A stretch of 35,580 nt of DNA, from positions 1-35,580 of the forward strand of contig CANNKP010000012.1 of the NCBI GenBank assembly GCA_947505255.1, in the 5' to 3' direction. Position numbers and translations under genes: made by a program. This DNA is from Flavobacteriales bacterium. GTDB taxonomy: Bacteria > Bacteroidota > Bacteroidia > Flavobacteriales_D > Crocinitomicaceae. Position 1 is the first letter of the stretch. Each line of letters starts with the position of its first letter. Under the pieces are notes generated by a model, which saw nothing but the letters and a program-made list of their open reading frames with translations, was not told the origin of the DNA and made no database searches. Of the stretch, positions 7,791-35,580 are shown piece by piece.

Positions 7791-8088
7791 TTCCAATAAG
7801 AATAAGTGAATACATTCTGCGTACAATCATATATTTAATCCTATGGTAACCTTTATCCCATTCAATAAATCACTTTTGGCATGTATCCGCTAGCTGGCAA
7901 ATCATGACAAAAAGATTTTGTGGTAACAAAGCAACGATTCAATTTTGGAATTTCCTTGTCACATTGTAAAGAGATTTTTTTATAACAAAATCAAACACAT
8001 TTTCCTCACAGAATTAGTATGAGCATTATAAGATTCACCTCTATAAAATTCGTTGATTGAAATATAATAGCAGGATATATCCTTCAGC
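7791..8088. other. 298-bp gap without a recognisable gene
   Basis: This stretch lies between the terminator of the barrel gene and the stop of the converging LTA-synthase-like gene. I see no open frame with gene-like content, no tRNA-like folding and no clear repeats. It is ordinary AT-rich sequence as far as can be judged by eye. Confidence 0.55.
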
Positions 8089-29798: not shown

Positions 29799-29900
29799 AT
29801 GTTAGGATTATTACTTATTTATTTCATCGGAAAATACTTTTACCAATTAGCTGAATTACATCATAAAAGCAAATGGGGGTTTGCTATTCCTATTGCTTAG
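29799..29900 (+). pseudogene. probable truncated small membrane-protein gene at the edge of the repeat array
   Basis: An open frame of 33 codons starts 11 bp after the lipoprotein stop: MLGLLLIYFIGKYFYQLAE, then a short basic segment and KWGFAIPIA, stopping at TAG 29898-29900. The N-terminus resembles small Bacteroidota membrane proteins with a YFIGK(Y/F)FY.LAE start and a KWGFAILGI... continuation into further helices. Here the frame ends as the 160-bp array begins (29891). The natural interpretation is that the array replaced or disrupted the 3' part of the gene. The similarity is from memory, so the original length is not established, and a functional 33-residue peptide cannot be excluded. 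Confidence 0.55.
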
Positions 29901-30817
29901 CCTATTATCTTTTGGAGCTGTTTCTGCGCCTATCAGCGATATCAGCGGGTGAAAGGATATTATCATTTCCCGCAGAAAACGCTGACAAAAGCACTAAAGG
30001 ATACACTCTATCAATTTCTGTTTTAATTTTTGGTTTTTGTTGTTATTTTCTATTGCTTAGCCTATTATCTTTTGGAGCTGTTTCTTCTCCTATCAGCGAT
30101 ATCAGCGGGAGAAAGGATATTATCATTTCCCGCAGAAAACGCAGACAAAAGCACTAAAGGATACACTCTATCAATTTCTGTTTTAATTTTTGGTTTTTGT
30201 TGTCATTTCCTGCTGCTTAGCCTATTATCTTTTGGAGCTGTTTCTTCTCCTATCAGCGATATCAGGAGGAGAAAGGATATACTCATTTCCCGCAGAAAAT
30301 GCAGACAAAAGCACTAAAGGATACACTCTATCAATTTCTGTTTTAATTTTTGGTTTTTGTTGTTATTTCTTAATGCTTAGCCTATTATCTTTTGGATCTG
30401 TTTCTGCGCCTATCAGCGATATCAGGAGGAGAAAGGATATTATCATTTCCCGCAGAAAACGCTGACAAAAGCACTAAAGGATACACTCTATCAATTTCTG
30501 TTTTAATTTTTGGTTTTTGTTGTCATTTCCTACTGCTTAGCCTATTATCTTTTGGAGCTGTTTCTGCGCCTATCAGCGATATCAGCGGGAGAAAGGATAT
30601 ACTCATTTCCCGCAGAAAACGCTGACAAAAGCACTAAAGGATACACTCTATCAATTTCTGTTTTAATTTTTGGTTTTTGTTGTCATTTCCTACTGCTTAG
30701 CCTATTATCTTTTGGATCTGTTTCTTCTCCTATCAGCGATATCAGGAGGAGAAAGGATATAATCATTTCCCGCAGAAAACGCTGACAAAAGCACTAAAGG
30801 ATATACTCTATCAATTT
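29891..30817. repeat. tandem array of a 160-bp unit, about 5.8 copies
   Basis: Units begin at 29891, 30051, 30211, 30371, 30531 and 30691; the last ends at 30817 (127 bp). The period is exactly 160 bp in each complete copy, and copies are nearly identical, differing at a few sites only. Recurrent landmarks are CCTATTATCTTTTGGA near the start, the inverted-repeat core described separately, GCACTAAAGGATACACTC, and a T/G-rich end. The period is not a multiple of three, so every copy is read in a different frame and the long overlapping open frames across the array are not credible as genes. The array lies between convergent genes, 19 bp from the hemL stop. Confidence 0.97.
30091..30147. repeat. 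REP-like imperfect inverted repeat in each 160-bp unit (coordinates of copy 2)
   Basis: Left arm TATCAGCGATATCAGCGGGA (30091-30110) and right arm TCCCGCAGAAAACGCAGACA (30128-30147) are complementary at 15 of 20 positions around a 17-nt spacer, with GCGGGA/TCCCGC perfectly paired. Units with CGCTGA in the right arm pair at 16 of 20. In copies 3, 4 and 6 the inner GCGGGA reads GGAGGA, weakening that stem. The design (two short TCAGCG/TCTGCG-type blocks flanking a GC-rich palindrome) recalls intergenic palindromes I remember from Flavobacteriia genomes. Confidence 0.8.
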
Positions 30818-30836: not shown

Positions 30837-32141
30837 TTAAAAAATAACATCCAAACATTCACAGAAAATACCAGCAGCTTTCTCTAGAATTTCTTTTGAA
30901 TGTGCGGAAGATACAAATCCAACTTCATATCCACTTGGCCCTAAATAAACACCACGATTCAATAATTCTCGGTGTAAATTTTTAAATCCTGTCATGTCAG
31001 GGTTGATTTCATCTGCTTTGTGAATGCTTTTCTTTCCATCAAATGACAACCAGAATATTGAACCAACAGTAACCAATTCAAAATTATATCCTTTCGATTT
31101 TGCATGCGTGTTTATGATTGAAACAAAATAAGTTGTTCTTTCAGCTTGATCTTCATAAAACCCTGGTTTGGCACATTCTGTTAATTGCGCAATTCCCGCA
31201 GCCATTGCAACTGGATTCCCAGATAACGTTCCTGCTTGATAAACGGGCCCATCAGGAGAAACACACGCCATGATTTCTTTGCTTGCGCCATATGCTCCAA
31301 CAGGTAAACCACCACCTATTATTTTTCCGTAAGTAACAAGATCAGGCTTAATTCCATAGTATTCTGCAGCTCCCGAAAAAGCAACCCTGAACCCAGAAAT
31401 CACCTCGTCAAAGAACAACAAAATTCCATTTTCAGTGCATATTTCTCGAAGTGCTAAAAGGAACGTTTTTTCCTGTAAAAGCAGCCCATTATTCGCTGGA
31501 ATTGGTTCAATAATCGCACACGCAATTTCACCCTTGTGCTCTGAAATACATTTTTTTAAAGCGTCAATATCGTTCAAAGGTAAAACCAATGTATCCATCG
31601 CAACATGTTCTGGAACGCCAGCACTTGAAGATTCGCCGAAGGTTACAAGTCCGCTTCCTGCTTTTACCAGAAGTGCATCTGAGTGCCCATGATAACACCC
31701 TTCGAACTTGATAATTTTATCTCTACCCGTATATCCTCTTGCCAAACGCAATGCTGACATTACGGCTTCTGTTCCAGAACTAGTGAAGCGAATTTTATCA
31801 ATAAATGGATTACGGCTTAAAATCAACTCAGCCAGTTCATTTTCTAAGCGAGTAGGAGCCCCGAAACTAGCACCATTTTGCAAAGCAGCAACGATTTTAG
31901 TATACACGGCTGGATGATTGTGACCTAAAATAAGTGGTCCCCAACTGCAACAAAAATCGATGAATTCATTGTCATCTTCATCCCAAATCATACATCCATC
32001 ACCTTTTTTAATAAAAAGCGGAGAACCTTCTACTGACTTAAATGCTCGAACAGGAGAATTTACTCCGCCCGGGAAATAGGTTTTTGCTTTTTCAAAAAGT
32101 CCTTCAGATGTTGTTCTTATTATCTTCGTTTGCGCAGACAT
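30837..32141 (-). CDS. hemL: glutamate-1-semialdehyde 2,1-aminomutase
   Basis: A 434-residue PLP enzyme that turns glutamate-1-semialdehyde into 5-aminolevulinate in the C5 route to heme. The start at 32141 (MSAQTK) is preferred over an upstream Met at 32162, because a -7 element overlaps the latter. Family signature segments: PGGVNSPVRAF near 24-34, IDFCCSWGPLILGHNHP near 61-77, SSGTEAVMSALRLARGYTGR near 121-140, GCYHGHSDALLVKAGSG near 148-164, FFDEVISGFR near 243-252, and PLP Lys273 in TYGKIIGGGLPVGAYG. Length is normal. Codons 30-101 are duplicated at the window's right edge. Identity is certain. Confidence 0.97.
   Translation of the reverse strand: MSAQTKIIRTTSEGLFEKAKTYFPGGVNSPVRAFKSVEGSPLFIKKGDGCMIWDEDDNEFIDFCCSWGPLILGHNHPAVYTKIVAALQNGASFGAPTRLENELAELILSRNPFIDKIRFTSSGTEAVMSALRLARGYTGRDKIIKFEGCYHGHSDALLVKAGSGLVTFGESSSAGVPEHVAMDTLVLPLNDIDALKKCISEHKGEIACAIIEPIPANNGLLLQEKTFLLALREICTENGILLFFDEVISGFRVAFSGAAEYYGIKPDLVTYGKIIGGGLPVGAYGASKEIMACVSPDGPVYQAGTLSGNPVAMAAGIAQLTECAKPGFYEDQAERTTYFVSIINTHAKSKGYNFELVTVGSIFWLSFDGKKSIHKADEINPDMTGFKNLHRELLNRGVYLGPSGYEVGFVSSAHSKEILEKAAGIFCECLDVIF
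31839..32052 (-). repeat. hemL segment duplicated at 35367-35580
   Basis: This part of hemL (codon 101 back to codon 30) matches the last 214 bp of the window at a constant offset of 3,528 bp with two mismatches (31911/35439 and 31923/35451). The left boundary is sharp: similarity starts at ATTTTCTAAG and is lost immediately to the left. The right boundary is the window edge, so the true length is unknown. Confidence 0.95.
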
Positions 32142-32159
32142 GTTATCTTCTTTTGAATG

Positions 32160-32167
32160 CAAAATTA
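32160..32167 (-). promoter_or_regulatory. candidate -7 element (TAATTTTG) of hemL
   Basis: TAATTTTG on the minus strand is an exact TAnnTTTG match 18 bp before the ATG at 32141. It overlaps the alternative upstream Met codon (32160-32162), which supports the downstream start. No convincing -33 element is seen. Confidence 0.45.
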
Positions 32168-35336: not shown

Positions 35337-35580
35337 TTAATAGCATAGAGTTATTACAATTTTATGATTTTCTAAGCGAGTAGGAGCCCCGAAACTAGCA
35401 CCATTTTGCAAAGCAGCAACGATTTTAGTATACACGGCAGGATGATTGTGCCCTAAAATAAGTGGTCCCCAACTGCAACAAAAATCGATGAATTCATTGT
35501 CATCTTCATCCCAAATCATACATCCATCACCTTTTTTAATAAAAAGCGGAGAACCTTCTACTGACTTAAATGCTCGAACA
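35337..35580 (-). pseudogene. hemL: partial hemL copy, broken at codon 101 and running off the window
   Basis: The minus strand enters from the window edge in hemL frame at about residue 30 and translates identically to residues 31-101 of the hemL at 30837-32141 (VRAFKSVEGSPLFIKK ... GAPTRLEN). Homology ends at 35367, and nine unrelated codons lead to a stop at 35337. It lacks the PLP lysine, the DEV motif and everything after residue 101, so it cannot be an active enzyme. The two mismatches are both third-position and silent. The upstream part is outside the window, so whether it has a start codon and promoter is not known. Confidence 0.9.

Follow-up and report, generated by a model that had tools for sequence, protein, structure and literature searches.

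A tandem array beside hemL in a Crocinitomicaceae genome and the palindromic repeats that bracket GxxExxY genes in Bacteroidota

The window (the whole stretch of DNA that was analysed, 35,580 nucleotides from a Flavobacteriales metagenome-assembled genome, MAG) carries a tandem array of 160-bp units next to hemL. Here we report that these units contain a palindromic core which occurs at scattered intergenic sites in the genus and has repeatedly been amplified in head-to-tail tandem. The same kind of repeat, two-armed and built of phased short words, tightly brackets genes of the GxxExxY family in Bacteroidota, and an array is found next to such a gene at two sites in the genus; the repeat class is physically linked to GxxExxY genes. 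We infer that the nuclease mobilises the repeats, and the bracketing itself is suggestive of a small type of mobile DNA that has so far gone unrecognised. On balance we consider it somewhat probable that the window array is an orphan, a tandemly amplified copy of a REP-like palindrome belonging to a class that is spread by the GxxExxY nuclease.

Tandem Repeats Finder, run on the window, returned the array with 94% matches, 0% indels and a score of 1638, its sole other row being an 18-bp repeat. The five full units agree pairwise at 148–154 of 160 positions, with 15 variable columns, and the sixth is incomplete (128 bp). This bears out the first-pass annotation, which had described six near-identical units spaced by 160 bp, the last one partial; the copy number of 5.8 is the assembled value only, from a MAG that is 69.3% complete and lies in 260 contigs. 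The variable columns 37 and 57 show all four possible pairings across the window units, a sign of recombination between units, and the idea that the array has expanded is supported in the form of a local expansion. A coding array was rejected, since 160 is not a multiple of 3, the unit spacings in the relative G005 are 160, 161 and 161, and the ORFs across the units are mechanical. A CRISPR array was likewise rejected, because the entire 160-bp unit is repeated, the spacer portion too. On both counts the earlier reading, neither a repeat-protein gene nor CRISPR, holds. No cas genes were recognised by eye among the window ORFs of at least 80 aa, no tRNA, tmRNA or Rfam family was found in the window (Rfam: 0 matches), and the array gave zero matches to plasmid and phage DNA. 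Elsewhere in the window, a 70-bp stretch at 7864-7932 is 89% identical to G000:C185 (L016:707-776); this is a dispersed repeat that is apparently unrelated to the array.

Table 1. Positions of the array, its palindromic cores and the adjoining genes in the window.
Feature	Position	Strand	Evidence or remark
Tandem array, 5.8 units of 160 bp	29887..30817	+	Tandem Repeats Finder, unit comparison
Palindromic core, unit 1	29910..30004	+	model R1, E 2.4e-19
Palindromic core, unit 2	30070..30164	+	model R1, E 1.0e-18
Palindromic core, unit 3	30230..30324	+	model R1, E 7.2e-16
Palindromic core, unit 4	30390..30484	+	model R1, E 2.4e-18
Palindromic core, unit 5	30550..30644	+	model R1, E 2.2e-20; left-arm words at 30562-30587 phased 10 bp (word scan)
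Palindromic core, unit 6 (last, partial unit)	30710..30804	+	model R1, E 1.2e-17
Small membrane-protein gene remnant, 33 codons	29799..29900	+	ends inside unit 1
hemL-like class-III aminotransferase gene	30837..32162	-	PF00202, E 6.9e-69; 3′ end 19 bp from array

The array had been placed between a small membrane-protein gene and hemL. Its adjacency to hemL is correct; the small gene does not stop short of the array and instead ends within its first unit. At the same place in the relative G002 there is an intact 106-aa membrane-protein gene (L094:1079-1399) between a lipoprotein gene and hemL, and the array interrupts a small membrane-protein gene that one relative keeps intact. In G005 that gene is decayed, as judged by eye. 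Arrays occupy the same hemL site in G005 (four units, 160/161 bp) and in G021 (two units), and thus the window array is not an artefact of one assembly, one of the possibilities that had been named as refuting it. Among 23 hemL loci, the lipoprotein gene, which lies upstream of the array, adjoins hemL in 19 and array cores are present in 3. In another species (G010, L107) the gap between the lipoprotein gene and hemL is occupied by a repeat that has no gene and whose arms read CACAGAG / CTCTGTG, by eye of the same class with other words. The N-terminal part of hemL recurs as a fragment at the contig end of the window (35343-35579, - strand), ~3 kb from the gene; it is 91% identical across residues 32-110 and may reflect strain variation or a join in the assembly.

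The first-pass annotation had proposed searching the unit in its own and related genomes, and this search found the core at further loci, with copy number and period specific to each. A single unit gave 12 matches in its own genome, including six diverged copies spread over five further contigs, and matched in 7 of 99 genomes, its own included, the matches in G048 and G085 being just 29 and 34 bp long. Model R1, built from an alignment of 25 copies (A1), has 14 matches in the own genome, comprising the 6 array units and 8 outside the array at seven other places. At E ≤ 1e-3 it matched in 7 of the 26 genus genomes (the own genome and 6 more), and a family-wide search of 150 genomes under stricter filters returned the same 7, all within the window's genus.

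The part common to these loci is an imperfect palindrome of ~95 bp, with a left arm TCTGCG..TCAGCG..TCAGCGGGAG, a loop, and a right arm TTTCCCGCAGA..CGCTGA. The arms are inverted and built of short words, [ACT]T[CT]NG[CT]G (e.g. TTCTGCG, ATCAGCG), spaced 8–11 bp. A strict word pair is found in the left arms of units 1, 2, 4 and 5, and not in those of units 3 and 6 nor in any right arm; in the 25-copy alignment the right arm is nevertheless a near-complement of the left. Tandem spacing of the core varies greatly. G003 has core arrays with periods of 109, 110, 108 and 257 bp (9.4, 8.4, 12.1 and 1.9 copies, respectively), and spacings elsewhere are 113 bp in G000 and G005, 204 bp in G005 and 361 bp in G021. 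Therefore, the 160 bp of the window is core plus local spacer and not a property of the element: the core has multiplied head to tail with an adjacent short spacer, giving each locus its own period. The earlier argument that strict conservation of unit length implies selection is thus unsupported, as the ~95-bp core alone is common between loci. None of the 33 element loci scored in the genus falls within an ORF of at least 90 aa. Both neighbours are present at 31 of them, and at 17 of those they are convergent; both figures count orthologous loci more than once. The core therefore behaves as a dispersed extragenic palindrome, a feature of REP/BIME sequences, and by inspection no GTAG or CGTC tag is conserved in the 25-copy alignment. 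No described element had been known for this unit; that statement stands for the exact unit in the searches made and falls for its kind, given that the unit belongs to a dispersed REP-like class. The sequence CACACCGGCAC was tried as a terminal inverted repeat of the dispersed element and rejected, as it adjoins few copies and its exact sites number just 1 in G000, 2 in G005 and 1 in G021.

The genus contains 29 PF13366 (GxxExxY) genes in 16 of its 26 genomes. The own MAG, 69% complete, yielded none, and neither the window nor the surroundings of the hemL arrays in G005 and G021 contained one. Four of the 29 adjoin element matches (G003:C123, G008:C16, G021:C9 and G005:C24). When a further 37 element loci, from the genus and other families, were read together with the window, a GxxExxY gene was present in the stretch read only at the array loci G003:C123 (L120) and G008:C16 (L124). 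Presence and absence were compared for one 6-kb stretch of G005 against six genomes. At the first site, a GxxExxY gene is accompanied by palindromes in G005 and G021, by three units in G008 and by a nine-unit array in G003; G002 has a gene-less phased repeat there (by eye) and G023 an empty gap. At the second site, G005 carries a 500-bp unit with perfect 21-bp inverted ends around its GxxExxY gene, and the corresponding gap in G021, G000, G023, G002 and G008 holds no such unit. No clear target-site duplication was found at the compared G005 sites, the 500-bp unit included. L366:272-406 (G005:C24) is another short repeat; it matches >20 times in G021, where several matches cluster at ~75–155 bp spacing, and more matches lie in G000 and G023.

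The association extends well beyond the genus. For a first flank test we took the next 40 rows without a locus from the PF13366 list ordered by E-value, leaving out four rows already sampled, with up to 6 kb per side. Repeats common to both 350-bp flanks were present in 26 of 39 GxxExxY genes (one contig-edge gene was dropped) compared with 1 of 156 displaced positions. The test was then widened to the 100 distinct genes, of 105 found, whose flanks could be used (27 from the genus and 73 from the phylum, including the 40 regions of the first test); these, too, are best-scoring rows of the PF13366 list and not a random sample. Matching repeats lie on both flanks of 50/100 genes (12/27 in the genus, 38/73 in the phylum), the other 50 having no detectable flank-to-flank repeat. 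Controls gave 1/300 for dinucleotide shuffles and 6/236 for other ORFs of the same 40 regions (p 7e-25), with 0/19 for hemL genes and 3/6 for Y1_Tnp genes, the latter with other sequences.

The repeats around these genes share the phased build of the core and consist for the most part of the words [ACT]T[CT]NG[CT]G. Gaps of 8, 9, 10 and 11 bp between successive words number 56, 112, 127 and 44, against a nearly flat 10, 12, 21 and 12 in controls. A phased word pair lies within 250 bp of 82/100 GxxExxY genes and of 24/236 control ORFs (p 3e-38); phased words are on both sides in 61 of the 100 and absent within 250 bp in 18. In 44 of the 61 two-sided genes the closest arms make up an inverted pair that faces outward, and the median distance of the closest arm is 36 bp from the start and 11 bp from the stop of the gene. 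Moreover, of 685 ORFs of 70–400 aa at 121 loci, 40 of which were chosen for GxxExxY, 37 are doubly bracketed and 30 of those are GxxExxY genes. The word count is partly circular, because the motif was fixed after part of the same flanks had been viewed, a circularity from which the flank-against-flank test is free. The reversed word, too, is enriched around the genes (16 in 23,752 bp vs 46 in 441,098, the word itself giving 49 vs 74), since dense palindromes contain it. The strict two-word motif alone adjoins 8/30 (by eye) and 10/40 phylum GxxExxY genes, and the list of ‘variant’ stretches is hand-made. The GxxExxY gene at L255 reaches 146.4 bits against PF13366 (cut-off 22) and 145.7 bits against TIGR04256 (cut-off 35). 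At L357 (G284:C4), two GxxExxY genes lie 740 bp apart and a 142-bp identical direct repeat surrounds one of them.

A search that was blind to the gene gave a wider view of the class. The inner-palindrome DNA pattern occurs in 69 stretches from a collection of 84,980 species genomes, 17 of which have phased arms on both sides, every one from a record labelled Bacteroidota or a group thereof; our script had flagged 18, and one (L218, Polyangiaceae) was dropped by eye as chance. Four of the 69 contain a GxxExxY gene, each within ~205 bp of the palindrome and one from a member of the Desulfobacterales. Among the 17 phased stretches, three hold a GxxExxY gene and 14 have none in the fetched stretch, although for one of these (L161, equal to G003:C123) the gene lies just outside it. 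Palindromes of related words (e.g. CTCTGCG) were also seen outside Bacteroidota, at L214 (Desulfobacterales), L175 and L199 (Deltaproteobacteria), L219 (Thermodesulfobacteriota) and L208 (KSB1), and at L214 a GxxExxY ORF ends ~25 bp from the palindrome.

Within a sample of 395 Bacteroidota genomes, a three-word pattern is present in 21, with a maximum of 59 sites, and the reversed pattern has zero sites among the genomes listed. PF13366 was found in 185 of the 395, namely in 17/21 pattern-bearing genomes compared with 168/374 others (p 0.0014, hand count). The four with the pattern and no PF13366 are G000, G222, G350 and G569, the own genome being one of them. Elements flank 128-aa genes that match both PF13366 and TIGR04256 ‘GxxExxY’ in G390 and G295, gene and element being repeated in tandem in G390, and in G374 and G316 the sole pattern site has a PF13366 gene ~100 and 68 bp away, respectively. 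Of 72,556 plasmid records, 8 carry GxxExxY. Viral contigs gave one match to the DNA pattern, lacking phased arms, and one GxxExxY query found no relative among them.

Judged by its sequence, the GxxExxY protein is a small PD-(D/E)XK protein with an intact predicted active site. In an alignment of 100 proteins, chosen by length and not necessarily identical to the 100-gene flank set, the GxxExxY glutamate, D67, E77, K79, Q91 and Y95 are invariant, giving D..ExK..QxxxY; QxxxY is a motif typical of RecB/Cas4 nucleases. PF13366/TIGR04256 GxxExxY has the PD-(D/E)XK nuclease fold (PDDEXK_3). An AlphaFold2 model from four sequences (pLDDT 85.2, pTM 0.79) has its best fold match in SSO0001 (4ic1; Foldseek E 5e-3, Z 9.1 over 100 residues), which we take to be a Cas4 protein, and also matches lambda exonuclease (Foldseek E 1e-2). 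These model-based matches are of moderate strength and indicate fold, not function. A sequence search of the PDB with one GxxExxY protein gave no match. The Rpn recombination-promoting nucleases, which also have the PD-(D/E)XK fold, are proteins reportedly linked to DNA mobility; they are a different family, and we know of no palindromic repeat partner for them.

The main rival reverses the order of events. The repeats would be older, stable REP-like palindromes, perhaps terminators or binding sites, which serve GxxExxY genes as landing sites, and the array would be a satellite expansion that has nothing to do with the nuclease. Most scanned repeat copies have no GxxExxY gene nearby, and the intergenic, often convergent, setting of the genus loci speaks for this reading too; insertion sequences that target REPs are moreover described in the accessible text of PMC1525189. 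However, the repeat sequence varies by genome and yet matches across the same gene, in CACAGAG, CACATAG, CGCAAAG and TCTGCG forms. Moreover, the 500-bp unit of G005 has a perfect inverted repeat of its own at its ends, and at that site the repeat, too, is missing from the five relatives. The nearest arm, furthermore, begins a median of 11 bp behind the stop codon. We therefore regard this explanation as unlikely, and spread of the repeats by the nuclease as the better reading.

More improbable still is a function for the array under selection, as a structured RNA or as a set of protein-binding sites. The palindrome does pair well, with 67.7% of its cells paired compared with 26–44% when slid, and a word spacing of ~10 bp would set the words on one helix face. 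However, covariation in the hairpin is not above that of column shuffles, a single unit folds weakly better than shuffles (z-scores -1.4 and -1.9), RNAalifold does not choose the long hairpin, and, as noted above, Rfam has no match; given the covariation and the weak folds we claim no selected RNA. Copy number, period and presence also differ among close relatives. Mobilisation by RAYT-type Y1 transposases, as for ordinary REPs, is disfavoured and very improbable. Y1_Tnp genes do occur in 9 of the 12 genomes of the genus that were searched, but the core (E ≤ 0.01) is missing from the ~1.5 kb around all 16 Y1_Tnp loci, as far as the contigs extend. The repeats flanking the three positive Y1 genes of the six testable have other sequences, and inspection of the core revealed no GTAG or CGTC tag.

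Returning to spread by the GxxExxY nuclease, a possible course of events can be outlined. A hairpin or cruciform formed by the palindrome would favour slippage and unequal recombination, by which arrays may be made and reshuffled. The GxxExxY protein may cut or process the hairpin ends, allowing the repeat to spread with or without its gene, in a role comparable to the one proposed for RAYT transposases in the spread of REPs. The copy in the window would then be a gene-less by-product that landed in the small membrane-protein gene downstream of hemL. More tentatively, we propose a class of mobile DNA that is common in Bacteroidota, with one Desulfobacterales case, in which a stand-alone Cas4/RecB-like GxxExxY nuclease gene of ~400 bp, set between phased palindromic arms and accompanied by no transposase or recombinase of known type, sheds gene-less hairpin repeats that may spread and grow into tandem satellites like the window array.

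Several described systems resemble parts of this picture. The accessible text of PMC3116915 describes REPs, REPINs and BIMEs as short dispersed extragenic palindromes, with hairpin-forming doublets and regularly spaced tandem arrays, and the REP/REPIN-RAYT system and BIMEs are alike to our repeats in dispersed palindromes, arrays and a small gene flanked by repeats. In contrast to REP/RAYT, the partner gene here is a PD-(D/E)XK GxxExxY gene and not a Y1 HuH transposase, no GTAG/CGTC tag was seen, and the arms consist of words 8–11 bp apart. CGTC-tagged REPs are reported also from Bacteroidetes, a dedicated transposase not having been found according to the accessible portion of PMC3733652; our repeats differ in that no CGTC tag was seen and a candidate partner gene is proposed. 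BrickBuilt of Porphyromonas gingivalis is, by the description in the abstract of PMC4596501, a MITE with an internal minisatellite; like the window array it is intergenic, from Bacteroidota, and has tandem repeats in a mobile non-coding element, and unlike it the unit is of 23 nt and spacerless, and the abstract names no link to GxxExxY. Leptospira has long-unit non-coding satellite families at several loci (PMC6749651, partial text), whereas here we can name the unit core, the form in which it occurs singly and a candidate gene for its mobilisation. The literature searched, which included few subscription papers, yielded no link between GxxExxY and repeats, and only three papers there name GxxExxY or PF13366, never in a title or abstract; of 25 papers containing the repeat strings, the 20 listed appear from their titles to have no bearing on the subject.

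With a repeat as its frequent partner, the PF13366 (GxxExxY) family would gain a testable role. That partnership would also offer a candidate enzyme for those REP-like repeats that are without RAYTs, and would explain the origin of bacterial non-coding satellites such as the array in the window.
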